Source: Acetobacteraceae bacterium (lineage in GTDB: Bacteria > Pseudomonadota > Alphaproteobacteria > Acetobacterales > Acetobacteraceae). From it: a DNA stretch of 51,852 nt. Made by a program: the position numbers and the translations under genes. The number at the start of each line of letters is the position of its first letter. Positions within the stretch are counted from its first letter, which is position 1. Positions 19,375 to 40,689 of the stretch are shown piece after piece. Location of the stretch: positions 1 to 51,852 of the forward strand of contig JANXMB010000019.1 of the NCBI GenBank assembly GCA_025354865.1, in the 5' to 3' direction. The notes below the pieces were generated by a model. It made no database searches, had not been told where the DNA came from, and was given only the letters and a program-made list of their open reading frames with translations.

Positions 19375-20865
19375 CTAATGCGCTCGGAATTTCTGCCCCG
19401 GCACCAGCGCCCGGATCGCCCGCAACGCATCGGCCTCCGCCCCTGCCGGCCGGCCCACCAGCAGCCAGAGACCGGTCAGCACCACCGCGAACACGCCTGC
19501 ACCCACCGCCACGCCGGCCACCAGGGGCCACAGGCCGTTGCCGGTCCCGATTCCGCCCCAGCCCAGGCCGGATGCCCACAGCGCCGCTGCCATCGTCAGG
19601 CTGGCAAGCCCCGGCCGCCACACAAGGCCAGCCAGCGGCCCCGCGCCGATGCCGAATCGGCGCGCCGCCGTCGCCAGCACCGCGCCTTGTTCGACCGCGA
19701 TCGCGATCGCCGCCGCAGCCGCCGCGCCGGTCGCCCCGAATCCGGGAATCAGCGTCACCAGCAGCGCCACCCGCAACGCCGCTCCGCCCAGCGCGATGCC
19801 GACCAGACGCCCCAATAGCGCATGGGCGCTGAGCAAATGCTGACTGAGGTGCCCGAACACCTGCATCGCGCCCGCCATGCCCAGCACTTGCAGCACCGGC
19901 ACCGCCTGCCCCCAGCCCGGCCCCAGCGCCAGCCGGGTCAGCGGCGCCGCGACCGCCGACAATCCGACCCCGATCGGCAGCGCCAGCAGCGTGGCAAAGC
20001 CGATCAGCCGCAGGAACGTATCCCGCACCGCCGCCCCCTCGTGCCGAGCCGCCGCAAATCCCGAAAACGCCGCTCGGCCCAACGGCTCGATGAATTCGGT
20101 CGTCGGCAGCGCGGCGATTTCTGCCCCGATGCTGTAGATCCCGACGATCCCCGATCCCGCCATGCGGCCCAAAATCAGGCTGTCGCTGCGATCGCGCAGC
20201 AAGGTCGCGAGGCTGAGCAACCACGTCCAGAAGGAATAGCCGACCAGCAGCCGCCACGCCCGCAGGCTGAAGCGAGGGCGGAACGGGTGCATCGCGTAGG
20301 TCATCGCCATCCGCAGGGATCGGTTGACCAGCATCCCGCAGAGCATGGCGACATAGCTGTGCAGCAGGATTGCCGCCCCGATCGCGGCCAGAATGCCGCA
20401 GAGCTTGGGCAGCACCATCAGCGCGAATTCTTTGTGAAATGTCATGTTCCGGCGGAAATCCACCGCGCCGATATTGGCCAGCCCATCGAGCAGCGGCAGC
20501 AGCGCCACGACCAGCAGCACCGGCCCCAGCCGTTCGTCGCCGAAGAAGCCGGCAGCGGGCCAGGCAGCGATGGCGACCATCAGGCTCGCAAGGAGACCGC
20601 GCAGCGCGCTCAGGGTGAAGGCGCTGTCGTACACCGAACGGTCGGGATTGCGCTCGCGGATGACGGCTTCCTCGGTGCCGAGACTCATGAGGCCGTCGAC
20701 CGATTGTACGAATCCGGTGGCCAAAGCGATCAGGCCGAAATCGGCGGGGACCAGCAGGCGGACCAGAACCAGGGTGCTGGTCAGGCCGAGAACCCGCATC
20801 CCCAGCCGCCAGGCCATCACCCACCCAGCGCCCCGCGCGGTGCGCGCGAGCAGCGATCCGGTCAC
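19375..20865 (-). CDS. Lipopolysaccharide/oligosaccharide flippase (Wzx/MOP type)
   Basis: 496 residues, strongly hydrophobic with about 12-14 membrane helices. The start ARTARGAGWVMAWRLGMRVLGL and LVRLLVPADFGLIALA are typical for polysaccharide export flippases; further family features are RERNPDRS and the LRDRSDSLILGRMAG segment. These proteins move lipid-linked oligosaccharides across the inner membrane. The GTG start overlaps the stop of the dioxygenase-like gene (GTGA), so the two are co-translated. It suggests a surface-glycan pathway, as does the locus at 32.8-40.7 kb. The substrate glycan is unknown. Confidence 0.9.
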   Translation of the reverse strand: MTGSLLARTARGAGWVMAWRLGMRVLGLTSTLVLVRLLVPADFGLIALATGFVQSVDGLMSLGTEEAVIRERNPDRSVYDSAFTLSALRGLLASLMVAIAAWPAAGFFGDERLGPVLLVVALLPLLDGLANIGAVDFRRNMTFHKEFALMVLPKLCGILAAIGAAILLHSYVAMLCGMLVNRSLRMAMTYAMHPFRPRFSLRAWRLLVGYSFWTWLLSLATLLRDRSDSLILGRMAGSGIVGIYSIGAEIAALPTTEFIEPLGRAAFSGFAAARHEGAAVRDTFLRLIGFATLLALPIGVGLSAVAAPLTRLALGPGWGQAVPVLQVLGMAGAMQVFGHLSQHLLSAHALLGRLVGIALGGAALRVALLVTLIPGFGATGAAAAAAIAIAVEQGAVLATAARRFGIGAGPLAGLVWRPGLASLTMAAALWASGLGWGGIGTGNGLWPLVAGVAVGAGVFAVVLTGLWLLVGRPAGAEADALRAIRALVPGQKFRAH

Positions 20866-22142
20866 GCCGGAAGGATGTCCGCCGGGGGGTTGTCCAGCGG
20901 GGGGTTGTCCAGCGGTTCGCGGTCCGCATAAACGGCAGACGCGAAAACATGCCTCTCATGCGGATGCAGGCGGGTCGCGATCCGTTCGGCATACAACGGC
21001 GCGGCATAGCGCGGTGCCACCCAGGCGCGGATACCACGGCGCACGGACAGTTCCGGCGCGGCCGTCGTCTCGTGCACCAGATCGGGATGCAGCACCGCAA
21101 CCGAACCGAATGGCAGGTCCAACGGCAGCCGAGCGAGGCCGCCGCGGCGGATCGCGGTCAGCAGCCGCCCGGTGTGGCGGGTTTCTTCCCCGACGAGATC
21201 GGGCACGTCCATGCGACGGGCTTCCTCGGGCGATTTGTAGCGGTCGGCATAACGGTAATCGGCGAAGCGGTGGCTGCCGGGGTAGACGTGCAAGCCCGCA
21301 CCGTCCGGGGGATCGTCCAGCCCGAACCACAGCGTCGCGCCGTGGCGTTGCATCGTATGCGGCAGGACGGCCGAATCCTGCTGCGGCGGGCGCAGGATGG
21401 GGCGCAACACCCCCTCGGTCCCGGCGATGGCCACCGGGCTGTCGAACAATTCGGTCAGGAAACGGGCCACGGGGATCGCCAGGATCGCCGACCGGATGGG
21501 CTTGGACAGATAATGCACATCCAGCGCGGCGGTGGGATGCGGGGCGAGGTCCGCCGTCCAGCCGATCGGGTCGGGCGCCAAAGCCGGGCAGTGGAACATT
21601 GTGCCAGGCACGATCCCGGCGAAAATCTGTTCCAGCGCCAGCCGAGCCGGTGCCAGCCGATCCGCCACCGACCCGAGTTCGAGCACCGCGTAGCCATCGC
21701 GCGCCCAGCCCAACAGGCGTTCGGCCTGCCGATCCGAAATCCGCCCGAGGTCGAGGCGATTCTGCACGAGATCGGCGACATCGGCCCGATCCGTCCACAA
21801 CCCGCCGAACGGCGAGGCCACCGAACCAGGATCCGACGGGCGGGCGGCGGCGGCATTGGGCAGGTATCCCCGAGCACGGCCGCGCTGCACGAAATGCGCC
21901 GCCGCGTCGCCCCGCCCCGGTGCTCGGCCCAGATCGGCGGCAACCATCGGATAGGACGCCAGATAGAAGTCGGGATCGACATCGTTCGGCAACCGGCCTT
22001 CCCGCCGACCGTGCTTGTCGTAATGGTCCCACGCGCTTTCGACGACGCGGGCTTCGATTGCCTCGACCAATCCGGGATTCCGGCGCAGGTAGCCGGCGTG
22101 ATCGAACAAGTCGCGATCCTGGGGGCGAATTGGGTCGGCCAA
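20862..22142 (-). CDS. Phytanoyl-CoA dioxygenase-like protein with N-terminal EGR repeats
   Basis: 426 residues from a TTG start; an in-frame stop lies four codons upstream, so no longer form is possible. Residues 14-95 hold two units of the pattern FYLxxxP...HFxxxGRxxG (HYDKHGRREGRLP and HFVQRGRARGYLP), as in the small protein at 38627. Residues about 150-400 resemble the PhyH fold: LWFGLDDPPDGAGLHVYPGSH (271-291) and VAVLHPDLVHETT (348-360) with a candidate Fe ligand His357. The usual HxD reads H262-T-M264, so the Asp ligand is not obvious and activity is uncertain. The tail repeats LDNPP twice. It overlaps the flippase gene. Likely glycan- or lipid-modifying (inference). Confidence 0.65.
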   Translation of the reverse strand: MADPIRPQDRDLFDHAGYLRRNPGLVEAIEARVVESAWDHYDKHGRREGRLPNDVDPDFYLASYPMVAADLGRAPGRGDAAAHFVQRGRARGYLPNAAAARPSDPGSVASPFGGLWTDRADVADLVQNRLDLGRISDRQAERLLGWARDGYAVLELGSVADRLAPARLALEQIFAGIVPGTMFHCPALAPDPIGWTADLAPHPTAALDVHYLSKPIRSAILAIPVARFLTELFDSPVAIAGTEGVLRPILRPPQQDSAVLPHTMQRHGATLWFGLDDPPDGAGLHVYPGSHRFADYRYADRYKSPEEARRMDVPDLVGEETRHTGRLLTAIRRGGLARLPLDLPFGSVAVLHPDLVHETTAAPELSVRRGIRAWVAPRYAAPLYAERIATRLHPHERHVFASAVYADREPLDNPPLDNPPADILPA

Positions 22143-31882: not shown

Positions 31883-32692
31883 CTACTCCGGCTCGATCAG
31901 GCGCGCGCGCTCCCGCGGCATGGCCGGCGCGGGGTTGCGTTCCGCCAGCATGCGGAGACCGTCGAGGGTCAGGTCCGGCAGGATGTGATGGATCATGGTC
32001 GTGCCCTCGGAAAACAAGGGCGCGAGGCCGCCGGTCGCGACGACCTTCATCGGGCCGCCGAACTCGCCTTTGATGCGGGTCAACAGGCCCTCGATTAGGC
32101 CGATATAACCCCAATAGACGCCGGATTGCATGGCCGGGACGGTGGAACGCCCGATCACCGATTGCGGGCGCCCCATCCCGATCCGGGGCAGCCGAGCGGC
32201 GGCCTGGTGCAATGCCTCCAGCGACAGGTTCACGCCGGGACAGATGACCCCGCCGAGATAGGCGCCGGTTTCATCGACCACGTCGAAGGTGGTCGCGGTG
32301 CCGAAATCGACCACGATCAGCGGCCCGCCGAATTGGCGGTGGCCGGCCAGGGCGTTCAGCAGGCGGTCGGCCCCGACCTCGTTCGGGTTGTCCACTCGGA
32401 TCTCGAAGCCCCAGTCCAGGTGCGCTCGCGCGATCAGGGGCTCGACATTGAACCAGTCGCGGCAGAGGCGACGAAGGTGATACAGCGCCGCCGGCACCAC
32501 GGTGCCGATCACCGCGCCTTCGATATCGGTGGATTTCAGGCCGCTATGGGTCAGCAGGGTCATCAGCCATACGGCGTATTCGTCGGATGTCCGTTGCGCA
32601 TCCGTTCTTATGCGCCATGACCCGCGCCATCCCTCGGGGTCGTGCACCGCGAAAACGACGTTGGTGTTGCCGGCATCGACGACCAGAAGCAT
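31883..32692 (-). CDS. coaX: Type III pantothenate kinase
   Basis: 269 residues. The ASKHA-type motifs are clear: [17 protein letters not shown] (phosphate 1), [12 protein letters not shown] (pantothenate/dimer region) and [15 protein letters not shown] (phosphate 2), then GGVICPGV. It phosphorylates pantothenate, the first step to coenzyme A; coaD for a later step is at 43819. CoaX enzymes need a monovalent cation and are not inhibited by CoA. The common neighbour birA is absent; the giant fusion gene lies upstream. Confidence 0.95.
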
Positions 32693-32800: not shown

Positions 32801-35800
32801 TTATGCCTCGGACGGCGGCGTTCCCGAACAGATGAAATGCGGGTTTTCCCAGCCGGGTTTGCCGTAGCGCAGCGGCGTTCCATCGGTGTTGCGGACCGAA
32901 CCGCCGGCGGCTTCCAGCACAGCTTGCGGCGCGCCGGTGTCCCATTCCATGGTGCGGCCGAACCGAGGGTAAAGGTCGGCAATTCCCTCCGCCACGCGGC
33001 AGAATTTCAGGCTGGACCCATAGCTGCGGATTTCCGCCACTGTTCGATCGGCCAGGAACGCGTCCAGTTCGGGGCCGGCGCCGTGATGGCGGCTGGCGAC
33101 GACGGTGGCGCCTGCATCCGGCACGGCGCGCGTGCGGATTTCGGTTTGCACCCCGCCCACCCGTTTCCAGGCCCCCTGCCCGACGATGCCGCCGAATAAT
33201 TCCCCGGTGGCGGGCACGCCGACGACGCCGAGCACCACGCGGCCGTCGCGCACGAGGCCGATGTTGACGGCGAAATCGTCGGAGCCGGAGGTGAATTCGC
33301 GGGTGCCGTCCAGTGGATCGACCAGCCAGAATGCGCCCGCAGCGATTTCGATCCGGCCGCCGGCGATTTCTTCCTCGGCGATCACCGGGATGTCGGGGCA
33401 GGCGGTGCGAAGGCCGGCGACGATCAGAGCCTCGGCCGCGCGATCAGCTTCGGTCACCACGGAGCGGTCCTTTTTGCGCTTCACTTTGAAGCCTTTAGCG
33501 CGGATCTTCAAAATCGCGACGGCGGCCTGCAACGCCAGATCGGCTGCGAGTTCCAGAAGCGCGGTGTCGGTCCGCGTCGGCGCTTCCGAGGTTACGGTTT
33601 CGGGCGTCTGGTCGGTTGCAGGGTCGGCGGTTGCCGCGGTGGCCGTTTCGGCAGCGGCGTCGGCCGCTTCGGTTGCGGCGTCGGCCATTTCCGGCGTCGG
33701 GCCAGCGTCGGCAGTTGCCTCCGGTGCGGCCTCGATCGGCAGTTCCAACACCGCATCCGTAGCCGCCCGGAAAACCGGCTCGATCGAGGCAACCCGCAAC
33801 GGCGCGGCGATCGGGCGGGCCAGCATCGTTTCGGCCAACGCGTGAACCTGATTGACCTCCAACCCACGCAGGCAACCCAGATTGCGCGGGCAATCCGCCG
33901 CGACCGCCAGATAGCACGGGCTGCACGTCATGTTGCGCCGCAGTGCCACGGCACGGTCCCCGACCGGACCCCATTCCGAGGCATCGACCACGCCCGAATG
34001 GATGCCGATCGTCGGCAAACCCATTGCCGCGGCGATATGTTTCGGGCCGCTATCGTTGCCGATATACAACACGCAGGCCGCCAGCAGCTTCGGCAAAGCA
34101 ACCAGCGAGGTCTGGCCCGCCATCGATCCGACGCATTCCGGGTGCAGCACGCTTTCCATCAAGGCATCGGCAATCGGCACCTCGTCCGGGCCGCCGACCA
34201 ACAGGACGGAAACGTCGTTCTTCTCGATCAATAAATCGATCAATGCGGAGAAATGTTCTTCCGGCCATTGCTTCGTGATGTTGCCGGCGCCGGGATGAAT
34301 GGCGACCACCGGCTTGTCAAACAGCGCCTGGATCGGCGCCGGCATATCGGCCAGCAGCATCGGTTCCGGCGACGGGCGCATCAGCGCGCGGTCGGATTCG
34401 GTGGCCGCCCCGATCGCTGCGATCAAAGACAACAGGTCGTCGACGACATGGGCGCGCTTGCGTTGCAGCGTCTTGTCCCCGTCCCATTCCAGCGCAATGT
34501 CGAGGAAGGGGAATTGCCCCATGTAATCGAACCCGGCGAGGAAGCGCGCGCCGGTCTGGCGCAGAATATCCCGGGTGGATAGATGCTTGCGCAGATCGAC
34601 CGCCAGATCGTAGCGGTGCGGTTGCAAACGCCCGCGCAATTCCGCCAGATCCTCGGCGGTCAATTCCCGCTCCCCCAACTGGGATCGGGCGTGGAAGAAC
34701 GAAAATTCGATGAAATCGTCGATCGCCGGTTCCAGCGTGGCGAAGGCGCGCGACGCCGGACCCGCCAGCACATCGATTTTCGCGTGCGGGAACAGGTGCT
34801 TCAGCTTGCGGATCGCCGGCAAAGCGGTGACGAAATCGCCGATGTGATCGAGTTTTACCACCAGAATGCGCTGGATATCGTCGGTCCGGAACAACGGATG
34901 CCCGGCATGGACGCATTCTGTCACCTCATCGTCGGGGCGGAAATCGTCGGCGTGGCGCGACAAATTGGGGTTGAAATACGGATCGCCGGCCGCGAACTGT
35001 GTCTTCCAGTGATTGTTGAAATGCGTGAGGTTGTAGACGTCCTTCAACCGCTCCCGGCTGGCCAGTTCGTGATGGATCAGCGTCGCGTGCGGCGTGTAAA
35101 CCGTCAGGTAGCCGGCCTTGTGGGAGCGTAGGCAGTAGTCCAGATCGTTATTGACGATTTCATGTGCTTCATCGAAACGACCCAGGCTGTCGAACAAATC
35201 GTGGCGGACCAACATGCAGGCGCCCGTCACCGCCATGACGTTGCGCTGCGTCAATGCCAGCCCGAAATAGCCGGGCTCGTCCGCAGCCGCGAAACGGAAG
35301 GCGTGCCGACCGATGCCGTTGTTCGCCAGGAACATGCCGGCATGCTGCACCTTGCGATCGGGATAGAGCAGTTGCGGGCCGACGATGCCGACCTCCGGCC
35401 GTTGCGCGCTTTCCATCAGCACGTCCAGCCAGTCTTCCTGCCAGAATTCGATGTCGTCGTTCAGGAACAGCAGGAATTCGCCATCCGCGACATCGACCGC
35501 CGCATTGTTGAAGCGCGACCAATTGAACGCATGCGGCATATCGACGATTTTATCGGCGTGCTGCTGCAACCAGATTTTCCACGCCATCTGGCTGTCGGGA
35601 ATATTGTCGATGACGATGATTTCGTAATCGGGATACGACGTCTTCGCGCGTAACGTGTCCAGGCAGGTTTCGACGTAGCCATGCGCCGCGCAGGTCGGGA
35701 TAATGATCGAGACCTTGCCCTTGACCGGCACCGCGCGGCGGAAGCGCCACGTGCCCTCGACCGCGCCGGGCAGGATTTCGGCGACGGTATCGCGCCGCTC

Positions 35801-38548
35801 CGCCGCCCGAACCAAGGCCGCCGCGCCGGCTTCGGCACTGTCCAGCGCCGCCGACCCACGGGCGCACAGCAATTTCGGCACATGGTGGATATGTGCGGCG
35901 ATTTCCGTCGCCCGCAGCACCAGATCGTATTCCCCCTGCGCCAGCAGCTCGGCCGGGGTCGGCGCCAGTGCGGCCAGCAGCGACGAGCGCATGGTCCAGG
36001 GACGGCCGATATAGTTGGTGGATAGCAGCAGATCGGGGGAAAAATCGGGCTTGAAAAAGGGTTCCCGCTCCCGCGAGGCGGGGCTGATGCGGGATTCGTC
36101 GGCATAAATCAGATCGGCGGACGGCCGCAGCAGCCCGGCCATCGCCAGTTCCAACAGCGCATCCGCACCGAGTTCGTCGCCCGGCGATAGCAACACCGTC
36201 GTGGCATCGCTGGCCGACAACGGCTGCGACCACGCTGCGTCGTCGCCGGTCGTGATCGACACCTGCGACGACAGCTCCGCATCGAAATCTAGCAGCACGG
36301 CGTCGATGTCCGCCCGCCCGGCCGGATCGGCCAACAGCACGGTCAGATGCCAAGCGCGGAAACATTGCAGCCGCAGACTGTTCAACGTCGTCGCCAGCAA
36401 CGCCGGATCGACCAGCCCGTCCTGGCGCAAATACAGCGCGAAACGCGGCGGCATGCCGGTGCCGATCAGATCGGTCAGCAGCGCATCGGTCAGATCGGAT
36501 TCAACCCGCGCGATGCGGCGTCGGATCGACCCGAAATCGTCGAGTTCCTCGGCCTTCTTCACCTGAATGGCGAAGACCTGCCTCATTTCATTGCCATTTT
36601 TCGCTCGGATATCGATCCGAACTTCGTGCGTGCCATCCCGCAGGCTACGCGGCGGACAGTGGAAAGCGTAGCCGCTGCGGATCGCGTTGTCCCAATCCGG
36701 GAACGCGGCGCCGACGTCTTGGCGCGCAAGGCCGTAATGCGCCTCCCCCAAGCGTTGGCCGCCGAGAAACACCTCCATGCTCGCGACGCCGGACCGGGCA
36801 AGCACCCAGCCTTCGATCGTCAGCCGACCGGTGACGATGGCGGTGGCGATGCCGTTATCGACGCCGGGGCTGTCGAGTTGGAAATTGAATTCGTCCTGCC
36901 CGGGCGCTTCGATCGCCGGCGCGGGCGGTTCGATCCGAACGAGCGGCGGCAGCAACGTGACGATCGGGAAGGAGTCGTCTTTTTCCTCGCCCTGCCCGGT
37001 CCGCACCAGCAGGCGGACATTGTGCTCCCCGTCGGTGAGTTCGAGCACCCGGCGATCGAACACGAAGCCGGCATAGGGGGCGGCAGCGATTTCGGCGAAT
37101 TGCCGCCCGACATCGGGCCGTTCGTGGCCGTGATCGGCTTCGCCGACCAGGGTGCCGTCGAGATAGATGAAGATCGACGCGATATCGCCCGCGCTGACCG
37201 CCCAGCCCGAGACGGTCAGAAAACCGTCCATGGTCAGGGCGACGGAATCGCAGAACATATGGATGTCGTGGCGGGGCGCGGGCGGCGGCGCGGTTTCGAC
37301 GATCGGGGCGATCGGGGCGCCCGGCACAGCGCCGCCAGCGAGCATCCCGCCGCCAACCATCCCACCGGCAACCATCCCGCCGACCATCCCACCGGGGAAC
37401 AAGCCGCCCGGCAAAGGGTCGGTGGCGATGCGGAAATCGGCGGTGATGCGGTACGACGGTTCCCGCTGCATCAGATTGAAACCGCCGCCCGAAGGCGCAA
37501 ACCCGGCGGGCGGAGCGGCGGGCTGGGCGGCCGAGGCCGGTATCGCGGCACCCGGCACAGACCGCAGCGACCGCCCCGGCAGACGCTCCAGCGGTACCAC
37601 CGTCTCGTGCGAAAATCCCATCAACCCGATCGCCTGCGCTCGGATCGTGCTGGCGTGGCGGTGTTCCTCGCCCAATTGCACCGTCAGGCTGAAGCCGGAG
37701 GTCCGGGCGTTGGGATAGGCCGGATAAACCCCGGCCACGTCGTCGCGCACGCCGCCAAGCCGAGCGGCGGAGATGCGTTCGTCGTCGGCGAAGATCTGGA
37801 CGGTGACGAGGGTGGTCAGGGCGATAGCCCAGCCATGGATTTGCAGATTGCCTTCGCCATCGAGCGCGGCGCGTTCGACATAGACCAGGACCGGCGGGCG
37901 GATGCCGGCGCTGGTCATCGCGTTCTGGGTCGGGCCGGCGGTCAGACGCACCGGAATCGGGCCGTGCGGATCGACCGCGAAGTCGAAGGCTTCTTCGAAA
38001 ATATCGCCATCGGCGGTGCGGGCAACGATGATGGGCGCGCACCGGGCGGCGGCATTGGCATGCAGCCGCGGCAGGTTGAAATGGAACGCGCGCTGGCGGG
38101 CGCGGGTGCCGTCCGGCAGGGACGCCGGGGCGGCATGATCGGGATCGCCGTATTGGGCGATGCTCACGACCTCCCCATCGACATGCAGGGCGATCTCCTC
38201 GGCCGGGGAGGTCGAGACGACCCGCCCCTTGATCGTCATGTCGAAGCGGCCGTGGATGAACCCGGCGGACACGCCTGGATCGACCTCGATCGCGACGATT
38301 GTCTGCGGGGGAACGGGGGTCTGCGGGGGAACGGGCGACCCAGCATCGGGCGTATCGGCATCGGTCGGGTCGGCGACGGTGGCGAGGTCGGCATCCTCCG
38401 CCGCCCAGGCGGTATCGGCATCTTGCGCCGGCACCGCGAGGGCGGTGTGCAGCGACGCCAGCGTTACCGGCGCGGGGAGGCCGGTTTCGGCCGCTTCGTT
38501 CGCGGCGGCGGCCGTCTTACGCGACGTTTTCCGGGGCTCGCGGCTCAT
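32801..38548 (-). CDS. 1915-residue multidomain protein: beta-sandwich modules, GT2, GT9 and CysQ-like phosphatase
   Basis: One open frame. Residues 1-85: basic, then acidic/Pro-rich. Four beta-sandwich modules follow (about 85-200, 205-325, 428-535, 552-665); the last three share a GW near the start and an RxDV. A Gly/Met/Val linker is at 381-406. Residues 700-925 are GT2-like (DLIYADESR, FFKPDFSPDLLLS) and 944-1165 a full GT2 domain (VSIIIPTCAAHGY, LFLNDDIEF). GT9 heptosyltransferase-like: 1226-1575 (ILVVKLDHIGDFVTALPA, IHPGAGNITKQWP, YIGNDSGPKH, four Cys at 1542-1559). An Ala/Thr/Glu linker (1605-1660) leads to a CysQ-like phosphatase (1660-1912) with EEE 1725-1727, VDPLDGTREF 1743-1752 and MEWDTGAP 1867-1874. 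No signal peptide. Surface-glycan assembly is likely (inference). Internal initiation at Met1621 could also release the phosphatase. Confidence 0.85.
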   Translation of the reverse strand: MSREPRKTSRKTAAAANEAAETGLPAPVTLASLHTALAVPAQDADTAWAAEDADLATVADPTDADTPDAGSPVPPQTPVPPQTIVAIEVDPGVSAGFIHGRFDMTIKGRVVSTSPAEEIALHVDGEVVSIAQYGDPDHAAPASLPDGTRARQRAFHFNLPRLHANAAARCAPIIVARTADGDIFEEAFDFAVDPHGPIPVRLTAGPTQNAMTSAGIRPPVLVYVERAALDGEGNLQIHGWAIALTTLVTVQIFADDERISAARLGGVRDDVAGVYPAYPNARTSGFSLTVQLGEEHRHASTIRAQAIGLMGFSHETVVPLERLPGRSLRSVPGAAIPASAAQPAAPPAGFAPSGGGFNLMQREPSYRITADFRIATDPLPGGLFPGGMVGGMVAGGMVGGGMLAGGAVPGAPIAPIVETAPPPAPRHDIHMFCDSVALTMDGFLTVSGWAVSAGDIASIFIYLDGTLVGEADHGHERPDVGRQFAEIAAAPYAGFVFDRRVLELTDGEHNVRLLVRTGQGEEKDDSFPIVTLLPPLVRIEPPAPAIEAPGQDEFNFQLDSPGVDNGIATAIVTGRLTIEGWVLARSGVASMEVFLGGQRLGEAHYGLARQDVGAAFPDWDNAIRSGYAFHCPPRSLRDGTHEVRIDIRAKNGNEMRQVFAIQVKKAEELDDFGSIRRRIARVESDLTDALLTDLIGTGMPPRFALYLRQDGLVDPALLATTLNSLRLQCFRAWHLTVLLADPAGRADIDAVLLDFDAELSSQVSITTGDDAAWSQPLSASDATTVLLSPGDELGADALLELAMAGLLRPSADLIYADESRISPASREREPFFKPDFSPDLLLSTNYIGRPWTMRSSLLAALAPTPAELLAQGEYDLVLRATEIAAHIHHVPKLLCARGSAALDSAEAGAAALVRAAERRDTVAEILPGAVEGTWRFRRAVPVKGKVSIIIPTCAAHGYVETCLDTLRAKTSYPDYEIIVIDNIPDSQMAWKIWLQQHADKIVDMPHAFNWSRFNNAAVDVADGEFLLFLNDDIEFWQEDWLDVLMESAQRPEVGIVGPQLLYPDRKVQHAGMFLANNGIGRHAFRFAAADEPGYFGLALTQRNVMAVTGACMLVRHDLFDSLGRFDEAHEIVNNDLDYCLRSHKAGYLTVYTPHATLIHHELASRERLKDVYNLTHFNNHWKTQFAAGDPYFNPNLSRHADDFRPDDEVTECVHAGHPLFRTDDIQRILVVKLDHIGDFVTALPAIRKLKHLFPHAKIDVLAGPASRAFATLEPAIDDFIEFSFFHARSQLGERELTAEDLAELRGRLQPHRYDLAVDLRKHLSTRDILRQTGARFLAGFDYMGQFPFLDIALEWDGDKTLQRKRAHVVDDLLSLIAAIGAATESDRALMRPSPEPMLLADMPAPIQALFDKPVVAIHPGAGNITKQWPEEHFSALIDLLIEKNDVSVLLVGGPDEVPIADALMESVLHPECVGSMAGQTSLVALPKLLAACVLYIGNDSGPKHIAAAMGLPTIGIHSGVVDASEWGPVGDRAVALRRNMTCSPCYLAVAADCPRNLGCLRGLEVNQVHALAETMLARPIAAPLRVASIEPVFRAATDAVLELPIEAAPEATADAGPTPEMADAATEAADAAAETATAATADPATDQTPETVTSEAPTRTDTALLELAADLALQAAVAILKIRAKGFKVKRKKDRSVVTEADRAAEALIVAGLRTACPDIPVIAEEEIAGGRIEIAAGAFWLVDPLDGTREFTSGSDDFAVNIGLVRDGRVVLGVVGVPATGELFGGIVGQGAWKRVGGVQTEIRTRAVPDAGATVVASRHHGAGPELDAFLADRTVAEIRSYGSSLKFCRVAEGIADLYPRFGRTMEWDTGAPQAVLEAAGGSVRNTDGTPLRYGKPGWENPHFICSGTPPSEA
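37341..37394. repeat. Short tandem repeat coding for the Gly/Met linker
   Basis: Four units built on ACCATCCCNCCG (15, 15, 12 and 12 bases) in frame inside the giant fusion gene. On the coding strand they give the GGMV-type linker at residues 385-402. Replication slippage could change its length without shifting frame. Confidence 0.75.
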
Positions 38549-38626: not shown

Positions 38627-39022
38627 CTACATGCCATAAGGCATACGCCCTTCGCGGTAGCCGTCTTCGTCGAAATGCGCTTGCGCCGACGGCAGGATAC
38701 CGCGGCGGACGCTATCGGCGACATCCGGATTTTGGGTGAGGTACCAACGCTCGTCCACTTTCATCGCGAACGGCAGCCGGCCTTCGAAATACCCGTCTTC
38801 GACGAAATGGTGCTGCGCCGATTTGATCGAGCCTTCCCGCACCGCTTTGGCGATATCTTCGTACGTCCGCAGATACCAATCCTCGTCCACTTCGGTGCCC
38901 GCGATCATCTTTTTCAGCAGCCGCACGAACTCCTCGTACGATACGTTCACCCGCAACTCGCTGCGGATGGTGGAAATTTCGACGGAACGGCGGATCAGGT
39001 CGAAAGGGGGAAGGTATTTCAC
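38627..39022 (-). CDS. Small EGR-repeat protein beside the glycosyltransferase fusion
   Basis: 131 residues from GTG 39022, with TGGAG seven bases upstream; the in-frame ATG at 39094 adds unrelated sequence. After a charged helical start, two repeats of about 40 residues follow: residues 45-83 (DEDWYL...HHFVEDGYFEGRLP) and 88-128 (DERWYLTQNPDV...AHFDEDGYREGRMP). The WYLxxNPDV and HFxxxGxxEGR pattern recurs in large glycosyltransferases and in the PhyH-like protein at 20862. Function is unknown; the position suggests a scaffold or adaptor for surface-glycan enzymes (inference). It is divergent from hldE by 173 bp and 78 bp upstream of the fusion gene. Confidence 0.7.
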   Translation of the reverse strand: MKYLPPFDLIRRSVEISTIRSELRVNVSYEEFVRLLKKMIAGTEVDEDWYLRTYEDIAKAVREGSIKSAQHHFVEDGYFEGRLPFAMKVDERWYLTQNPDVADSVRRGILPSAQAHFDEDGYREGRMPYGM

Positions 39023-39195
39023 GATTGCTCCAGGCGGCCGGACGCGATGGTATTCCGGGGCGACACAGGCCCCGAACAAGCCCAAGCAATACAAGCAACA
39101 GCCCCGGATTGGAACAGCCGCACGCGCATTTTTTACCGATGCGGCGCGCCGCCCGGGGTGCTATCGGGCATCGCGGCAATAGGGAAGCAGGCCTT

Positions 39196-40689
39196 ATGAC
39201 GGGCAATGGGCAGCAGCACGGCGATACCGAACTCGCCGGCATCGTTCGACATTTCACCCAGGCGCGGGTGCTGGTCGTCGGCGACGCGATTTTGGACCTC
39301 TATGTCGTCGGCGCCGTGTCCCGCCTGTCGCCCGAGGCCCCCATCCCGGTACTGCGTCCCGACAAACGGCGATCCACTTTGGGCGGATCGGCCAATGTCG
39401 CGTTGAACATCGCGACCCTGGGCGGGCATGCCATCCTGGTCGGGGTGGTCGGCGCCGACGAAGCCGGGGCGGAAATGGCTCGCCTGCTGTCGCTGTCCCC
39501 CGGCACCGAATCCGCTCTCGTGGTGGCCGCGAACCGCCCAACCACCGCCAAAACCCGTTTCATGGCCGGGTCGCATCAATTGTTGCGCCTCGATGAGGAA
39601 GTGACGACCCCCCTCGCCCCCGAAACCGTCGCGGCGGTGTTGGCGCAGATCGAAGCCGCGCTGCCGCGCTGCGACATTGTCGTGCTGTCGGACTATGCCA
39701 AGGGCGTGCTGTGCGACGATGTGCTGCAACCGGCCCTGGCGATGGCTGCTGCGGCTGGCAAGACCGTCATAGCCGACCCCAAGCGCGCCGATTTCAGCGC
39801 CTATCGCGGCGCCACCATCCTGACCCCGAACGAACACGAAGTCCGCGCCGCCACCCGGATCGGGGTCGAACACGATGCGGAAGCCGATCGCGCCGGGCGC
39901 GAGGCCCTTGCCGCAACCGGCGGCCAGGCGGTGCTCGTCACCCGCTCCGCCAAGGGTTTAACCTTGGTCCGTAAGGATATGGAAGCACTGCATTTTCCAA
40001 CCCGAGCGCGGGAGGTTGCGGATGTGTCGGGTGCGGGGGATACGTTGGTCGCCGCCCTCGCCGTCGCGCTCGGCGCCGGGGCTTCGCTGCCCGATGCCGC
40101 CCGGCTGGCCAACGCCACCGCCGGGCTCTCGGTCGCCAAACAGGGCACCGCCACCGTGGCGCGGCACGAATTGCTGGGCGCGCTGCATATGCGCGACCTC
40201 GCAGCGACGGACAGCAAAGTGGCGACCTTGGAACAGGCGATGACCCAGTGCGAGGCATGGCACGGCATGGGGCTGCGGGTCGGTTTTGCCAATGGCTGCT
40301 TCGACCTGATCCACCCCGGCCATGTCCGCCTGCTGGCGCAAGCCCGCGCCGCCTGCGATCGGTTGGTGGTGGCGCTGAACACCGATGCCTCGGTCAAGCG
40401 GCTGAAAGGCCCCAACCGGCCGCTGCAAAACGAAACCGCGCGCGGCATTGTGATGGCGTCGATGGCGCCGGTCGATTTGGTGATCCTGTTCGATGAGGAC
40501 ACCCCACTGGAAGCCATCCAGGCGCTGAAGCCGGATGTGCTGGTCAAAGGCGCGGATTACACCGTCGAGCAGGTGGTCGGCGCCGATCTGGTGCAGGGCT
40601 GGGGCGGCCGAGTGGTGCTGGCGACGCTGGAAGAAGGCCATAGCACCACCGGCACCATCCGCCGCATGGCCACGCCGGAACGCGCCTGA
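39196..40689 (+). CDS. hldE: Bifunctional heptose 7-phosphate kinase / heptose 1-phosphate adenylyltransferase
   Basis: 497 residues. The PfkB/ribokinase domain (about 20-325) has VLVVGDAILDLYVVG, GGSANVALN and the catalytic GAGDT at 279-283. The nucleotidyltransferase domain (about 360-497) has GFANGCFDLIHPGH with the HxGH motif at 373-376. It makes ADP-D-glycero-beta-D-manno-heptose, the sugar donor for LPS heptosyltransferases (hldE/rfaE). Its divergent position beside the fusion protein with a GT9 domain fits a common pathway. AGGGAAGCAGG lies upstream of ATG 39196. hldD, gmhA and gmhB are not in the window. Confidence 0.96.
   Translation: MTGNGQQHGDTELAGIVRHFTQARVLVVGDAILDLYVVGAVSRLSPEAPIPVLRPDKRRSTLGGSANVALNIATLGGHAILVGVVGADEAGAEMARLLSLSPGTESALVVAANRPTTAKTRFMAGSHQLLRLDEEVTTPLAPETVAAVLAQIEAALPRCDIVVLSDYAKGVLCDDVLQPALAMAAAAGKTVIADPKRADFSAYRGATILTPNEHEVRAATRIGVEHDAEADRAGREALAATGGQAVLVTRSAKGLTLVRKDMEALHFPTRAREVADVSGAGDTLVAALAVALGAGASLPDAARLANATAGLSVAKQGTATVARHELLGALHMRDLAATDSKVATLEQAMTQCEAWHGMGLRVGFANGCFDLIHPGHVRLLAQARAACDRLVVALNTDASVKRLKGPNRPLQNETARGIVMASMAPVDLVILFDEDTPLEAIQALKPDVLVKGADYTVEQVVGADLVQGWGGRVVLATLEEGHSTTGTIRRMATPERA

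Follow-up and report, generated by a model that had tools for sequence, protein, structure and literature searches.

The window, that is, the whole stretch of 51,852 nucleotides that was analysed, comes from a draft genome of an Acetobacteraceae bacterium (190 contigs, 99.25% complete, 3.56% contaminated). On its minus strand lies a single ORF of 1915 aa that reads from an ATG to a TAA without internal stops (38548..32801; Table 1), in exactly the position of the 1915-codon frame given in a preliminary description of this DNA, which had not stated the strand and had read the frame as a fusion of beta-sandwich modules, glycosyltransferase (GT) domains, and a CysQ-type phosphatase. Four different domain types exceeded their cut-offs in the Pfam search of this one frame, and chance is therefore no issue for its architecture.

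Table 1. Features of the locus, with residue numbers of the 1915-aa chain and positions in the window.
Feature	Residues	Positions	Strand	Basis or content
Single ORF, 1915 aa		32801..38548	minus	Four beta-sandwich modules, two GT2-like regions, GT9, linker, CysQ
Beta-sandwich module 1	~83-193	37970..38302	minus	AlphaFold2 model
Beta-sandwich module 2	~200-321	37586..37951	minus	AlphaFold2 model
Beta-sandwich module 3	~426-531	36956..37273	minus	AlphaFold2 model
Beta-sandwich module 4	~551-664	36557..36898	minus	AlphaFold2 model; Pfam Big_7 at 570-644
First GT2-like (GT-A fold) region	699-944	35717..36454	minus	Predicted fold only
GT2 domain (second region)	947-1121	35186..35710	minus	PF00535, 1e-12
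GT9 heptosyltransferase-like domain	1227-1576	33821..34870	minus	PF01075
Low-complexity linker, predicted disordered	1578-1657	33578..33817	minus	pLDDT <50; split point of congeners aligns with linker end
CysQ domain	1665-1909	32822..33556	minus	TIGR01331 over cut-off; invariant columns; predicted fold
155-aa ORF, upstream of the fusion		38627..39094	minus	Position conserved, no family
hldE, divergent neighbour		39025..40689	plus	Two HldE domain models, each above its cut-off
coaX, type III pantothenate kinase, downstream neighbour		31883..32692	minus	Family models

We modelled residues 60-1205 with AlphaFold2 on an alignment (A1) of 20 of 24 relatives, L009, L014, L017, and L055 having been left out by hand. 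The model contained four beta-sandwich blocks, spanning about residues 85-192, 200-319, 429-530, and 554-663, followed by two alpha/beta regions resembling GT-A folds and, given its mean pLDDT of 72 and pTM of 0.43, the domains are readable but their mutual arrangement is not. Together with the Pfam matches, it bore out the four beta-sandwich modules, the second GT2 region, and the GT9 domain of the preliminary description; Big_7 is Pfam's view of the beta-sandwich part, in two stretches versus the four blocks of the model. The two GT2-like regions claimed earlier fared differently. The second scored 48.6 bits against PF00535 (gathering score 23.3), whereas no Pfam family matched residues 681-944 and the first region stands by its predicted fold. 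Among the Foldseek matches of the N-terminal model, polymerases with two GT-A domains (2z86, 2z87, 8vh8, and 8viw) ranked 2nd to 8th with low TM-scores, the top ranks also holding Ig-domain proteins; these ranks and the predicted alpha/beta fold suggest that residues ~699-944 are GT-A-like. PF01075 matched residues 1303-1546 (5e-33; 114.8 bits versus a gathering score of 22 bits), with NCBIfam matches spanning up to residues 1227-1576. The NCBIfam equivalogs for LPS heptosyltransferases I, II, and III all scored below their cut-offs (83.6/185.3, 102.3/134.6, and 105.6/170.2 bits, respectively), and by these models this part is GT9-like and none of the named LPS heptosyltransferase I, II, or III enzymes. 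No signal peptide or membrane segment was seen by eye at the N-terminus, indicating that the chain is probably cytosolic.

The C-terminal part belongs to the CysQ group, as had been proposed. It matched Pfam Inositol_P (residues 1665-1898, 1e-49) and exceeded the equivalog cut-off of TIGR01331 bisphos_cysQ (246.8 versus 228.8 bits); a second CysQ model, NF008182 (PRK10931), also matched, but at 180.3 against a cut-off of 379, which sets the domain outside that model's group. Models of other phosphatases scored far under their cut-offs (HisN 126.6/275.15, inositol-1-monophosphatase 50.9/332, and FBPase/IMPase 50.3/264). Across 35 relatives, of which 31 are congeners and 4 belong to other genera, 86 columns do not vary; the domain keeps all 86, including the metal-binding motifs WLVDPLDGTREF and EWDT. 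In a second AlphaFold2 model (residues 1560-1915, linker and CysQ; alignment A3 of 23 of 24 relatives, without L053 and with L056 and L057 dropped), pLDDT was mostly 82-98 in the CysQ core, which matched SuhB, IMPase, and CysQ structures. Linker and CysQ were modelled in this way because the alignment that combined the fused part with the separate GT9 and CysQ sequences (A2) paired CysQ sequences with GT9, so that it was unsuitable for modelling GT9, linker, and CysQ in one piece. The closest solved sequence was the CysQ of PDB 3b8b (8e-38), and the inositol-monophosphatase fold is common to both; the CysQ of congeners is a separate protein, in contrast to the C-terminus of a long chain found here.

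The dN/dS of this domain against five relatives was 0.09-0.16, rough estimates at synonymous distances of 0.66-1.2. Relaxed constraint on the fused CysQ was considered and found no support; the highest of the five pairs (0.16, against G008) fell within the 0.07-0.19 of 13 other pairs. Its tip in the CysQ tree (0.15) was the second longest of five, compared with 0.06-0.17 in the four others of its group. Five matches to TIGR01331 were found in the genome at E <= 1e-20, and only the CysQ domain of the fusion was over the cut-off. As described in PMC8268124 and PMC3141025, sulfate assimilation, sulfotransfer, and coenzyme A metabolism yield PAP as a by-product, which CysQ converts to AMP. The fused CysQ most likely still acts on PAP as a housekeeping phosphatase, attached through a flexible tether, and this role would explain why it is the sole match over this cut-off.

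The adjacent hldE gene, which the preliminary description had also recognized, was confirmed by its two domain models; it remained under the cut-off of the full-length model (471.5 of 521), and its ORF probably starts too far upstream, since PfkB begins at residue 80. It adjoins the GT gene in 15 of 18 named loci that hold GT and cysQ (L038-L055), the other three having little or no sequence on that side. These loci are labelled Acetobacteraceae, Rhodopila, or Acidisphaera, with two exceptions labelled "Proteobacteria bacterium" and "Nitrosovibrio" (a bin), and are not independent of the genomes compared below, as several share contigs (L038 and L110 were checked). The 155-aa ORF matched no Pfam or NCBIfam family, and its position was kept in 16 of the 18 loci (16/20 for L038-L057); it holds two "WYL" repeats, one reading NPDV. 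On the downstream side, an RNase J gene lies beyond coaX. Only eight of the 18 loci had coaX behind cysQ, and it was not found in five that reach ~7 kb past cysQ (L046, L048, L050, L052, and L053), so that this side is less conserved. Between the stop of the fusion and coaX, TTGACA and TATCAT separated by 15 bases (32748-32722, minus strand) look by eye like a promoter for coaX. Elsewhere in the window (19375-22142, minus strand), the genes for a polysaccharide flippase-like protein (Polysacc_synt_3) and a 426-aa protein share a 4-nt overlap; the 426-aa protein has a weak PhyH match and, at its start, a "YLRRNPGL" motif reminiscent of the 155-aa ORF. The locus L055 (CALQHT020000039.1), labelled Nitrosovibrio sp. 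Nv4, carries hldE, the 155-aa ORF, GT, cysQ, and coaX in this order at 63-87% identity, and this record may be mislabelled or contaminated.

The genus was represented by 33 genomes, and only in the window's own did one match run through both GT9 and CysQ. The junction could be read in 31 of the 32 other congeners (G011 was excluded, its matches running into contig ends), and GT and cysQ were separate neighbouring genes in every one of them. An in-frame cysQ start overlapped the GT stop by 1-8 nt in 29 congeners (the exceptions being G006 and G042), and 23 offered an ATG at position -1 or -4 relative to the stop; these starts were chosen mechanically as the first start, and in some genomes (e.g., G047) the more plausible start is an ATG immediately past the stop. 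Distances of -4 and -1 nt are given as the commonest in unidirectional gene pairs, and coupling as needing such short overlaps, in the cited part of PMC10666635. The ancestral state, as read from these junctions, was probably a translationally coupled gene pair. The free GT2-GT9 protein of the genus has the modules and order of the fusion and differs from it in having its own stop before cysQ; it measures 1464-1728 aa (by first start, 24 loci) and shares 54-87% identity in the GT9 part and 45-70% over residues 60-1205 (20 relatives). Past the aligned GT9 part, the GT tail varies from 3 to 132 residues across congeners and is often Ala/Pro- or Lys/Arg-rich.

The window's genome fell in a supported group of five in the CysQ tree, with G008, G001, G045, and G015, and in a supported group of seven in the GT9 tree, with the same four, G010, and G047; all the others in both groups are split. 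Because it nests in well-supported groups of split members, the fusion appears by parsimony to be the derived state, and so far it is private to one draft genome. No conserved GT-CysQ fusion family emerged when the same architecture was sought in related genomes: none of the 31 testable congeners and none of the 18 named loci was fused, and no fusion appeared among the matches listed for 299 genomes of the family. The preliminary description had counted homologues that are always split in close relatives as evidence against the fusion; that is the arrangement found, yet split homologues do not show that the ORF is false in the source genome.

Two kinds of candidate for further fusions were rejected. 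A match spanning both parts in another genus (G176, contig C153, JANWJK010000153.1; locus L110, on the same contig as L038) proved to be split, since a TAG closes the GT gene and cysQ continues in that frame, with ATGs 18 and 45 nt after the TAG; one in-frame stop parts the genes in this arrangement, which comes near a fusion. Twelve CysQ matches lay in very long open frames (G195, G166, G202, G340, G254, G245, G218, G059, G081, G244, G110, and G231). Given that no match to the GT of the fusion was found in the stretches searched and that the codon preference for the CysQ frame drops just upstream of CysQ, we took these frames as chance ORFs in G+C-rich DNA.

Could the junction be an error of sequencing or assembly, with the true genes split as in the relatives and a mistake in the linker joining their frames? 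Of the 32 testable genomes in the genus, this is the only one in the fused state, the assembly is a draft, and the linker is G+C-rich and of low complexity; the strongest point in favour of an error is a TAA at residue 1652 in one shifted frame. Against this, codon preference pointed to the frame of the ORF in all 13 codon windows from residue 1481 to 1770, across the linker and its flanks, with a slight lean because the preference was derived from the same ORF. That frame has no stop at the junction and no ATG, GTG, or TTG between residues 1621 and 1673, and the bases aligned to the ATG of the relatives' cysQ read CGG. With the start codon lost at this point, one indel would not restore the split arrangement, and more than one change would be needed. 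A simple frameshift artefact is therefore unlikely on these features, and we consider the explanation by error as a whole improbable. The fusion with intact domains looks real by the same features, in agreement with the preliminary description, which had argued for an in-frame fusion of intact domains over a low-complexity linker; the mutational path is uncertain because the linker aligns poorly with the relatives. A different doubt concerns the products of the gene, which might be mainly the fusion plus some free CysQ started within the linker. In-frame starts do occur there at residues 1600 and 1601 (GTG/TTG, 33751/33748) and 1621 (ATG, 33688), and cysQ is a gene of its own in the relatives; by eye, however, none of the three has a clear Shine-Dalgarno sequence in the 20 bases upstream, and although such a second product is conceivable, we hold it to be unlikely.

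The preliminary description had seen in the link between GT and CysQ a possible sign of a sulfated or PAPS-linked glycan or of a new sugar-phosphate substrate, and neither idea gained from our results. Sulfotransferases and cysNC were both found, all elsewhere in the genome. Contig C162 carries cysD, cysNC (with APS kinase), and a cysH that was over the cut-offs of NF002537 and TIGR00434 (phosphoadenylyl-sulfate reductase) and under those of the APS/PAPS-specific TIGR02055 and TIGR02057. Three sulfotransferases, two of them with TPR repeats, lay on C145, C181, and C150 and none on the window's contig (PF13469 and PF00685 searched). Outside the genus, 19 of the 299 family genomes had both genes among the matches listed. 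The GT9 match and cysQ were on different contigs in 14 of these, which in a draft does not alone prove distance, adjacent in four (G176, G099, G055, and G074), and ~3 kb apart in one (G126); in two of the 14 (G062 and G105), no cysQ was found downstream of the GT. A plasmid of Gemmobacter fulvus encodes a "glycosyltransferase family 9 protein" (WP_215507948.1) with 47.7% identity over residues 809-1577 and rfaE1 nearby; unlike the fusion, it has no CysQ part, and no cysQ is annotated in the 26 kb around it.

A fusion serving sulfated-glycan synthesis, in which the GT-tethered CysQ clears PAP where a sulfotransferase acts on the same glycan, would fit the PAPS supply, the three sulfotransferases, and the adjacency of GT and cysQ in all testable congeners. 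It is nevertheless very improbable, given that the sulfotransferases detected with these two families lie on other contigs, that different contigs hold cysQ and the GT9 match in 14 of the 19 genomes outside the genus among the matches listed, and that the Gemmobacter GT2-GT9 homologue near rfaE1 has no annotated cysQ within 12 kb. Apart from the fact that the genome has PAPS metabolism and sulfotransferases at all, we found nothing in favour of a sulfated glycan. We give still less credence to a phosphatase with a new sugar-phosphate substrate, such as heptose bisphosphate, acting in the GT pathway. While hldE is nearby, NF008182 is under its cut-off, and the Inositol_P superfamily is broad, the domain is over the cut-off of TIGR01331 as the only such match in the genome, keeps its invariant columns, and is far under the cut-offs of HisN, inositol-1-monophosphatase, and FBPase/IMPase; nothing found ties it to a sugar phosphate.

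The genus-wide adjacency and overlap, together with the fusion, might instead reflect a physical partnership, CysQ being a subunit of the GT enzyme that clears PAP or another bisphosphate arising as the glycan is assembled, and the fusion having fixed a complex that the relatives would build from two coupled proteins; we see a small chance of this. According to the cited part of PMC10666635, short gene distances are enriched 4.5-fold in E. coli for subunits of the same complex, yet 69.6% of such close pairs encode no complex. PMC3711429 points out that neighbouring genes may be found fused elsewhere. A known fusion of sulfate-assimilation genes is CysNC (fused cysN-cysC; described in a passage of PMC3141025), also present in the source genome; it joins consecutive steps of one pathway, in contrast to GT and CysQ, which have no demonstrated common pathway. 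By title and abstract, the literature on CysQ or inositol monophosphatase fused with glycosyltransferases held nothing like GT-CysQ, that on CysQ fusions held nothing similar among the matches listed, and that on Rhodopila glycosyltransferases comprised unrelated work only.

We therefore favour, as the likely explanation, that a coupled pair of genes, encoding a cytosolic multi-domain GT and CysQ, recently fused in frame and that CysQ is still the usual PAP phosphatase. Two overlapping and probably translationally coupled genes would have fused in one lineage, the overlap of stop and start at their junction being lost apparently through more than one change and the variable low-complexity tail of the GT becoming the in-frame linker. 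The protein would be made as one whole chain with both GT and CysQ activities. Most likely, its GT portion attaches two or three sugars, among them heptose from the ADP-heptose of the adjacent HldE, to an acceptor that may be a lipid-linked or lipid A-core glycan. The CysQ part would fold independently and remove the 3'-phosphate of PAP arising from sulfotransferases and coenzyme A metabolism, being merely tethered to the GT. Counting against this fusion reading are its single draft genome, in 190 contigs and from one strain, the poor alignment of the linker, the possible free CysQ from the ATG at 33688, the CysQ score under the NF008182 cut-off, and the length of the CysQ tip, second in its group of five.

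The fusion defines no new enzyme family and is a one-genome oddity, and it serves as a warning that a functional link does not have to stand behind a striking domain architecture known from one draft genome. If a partnership between CysQ and the GT were true, PAP turnover would be tied to surface-glycan synthesis in Acetobacteraceae. As a recent fusion, the locus would show cleanly how two overlapping genes turn into a single one, with the split and mostly overlapping state kept in 31 relatives and one descendant fused.
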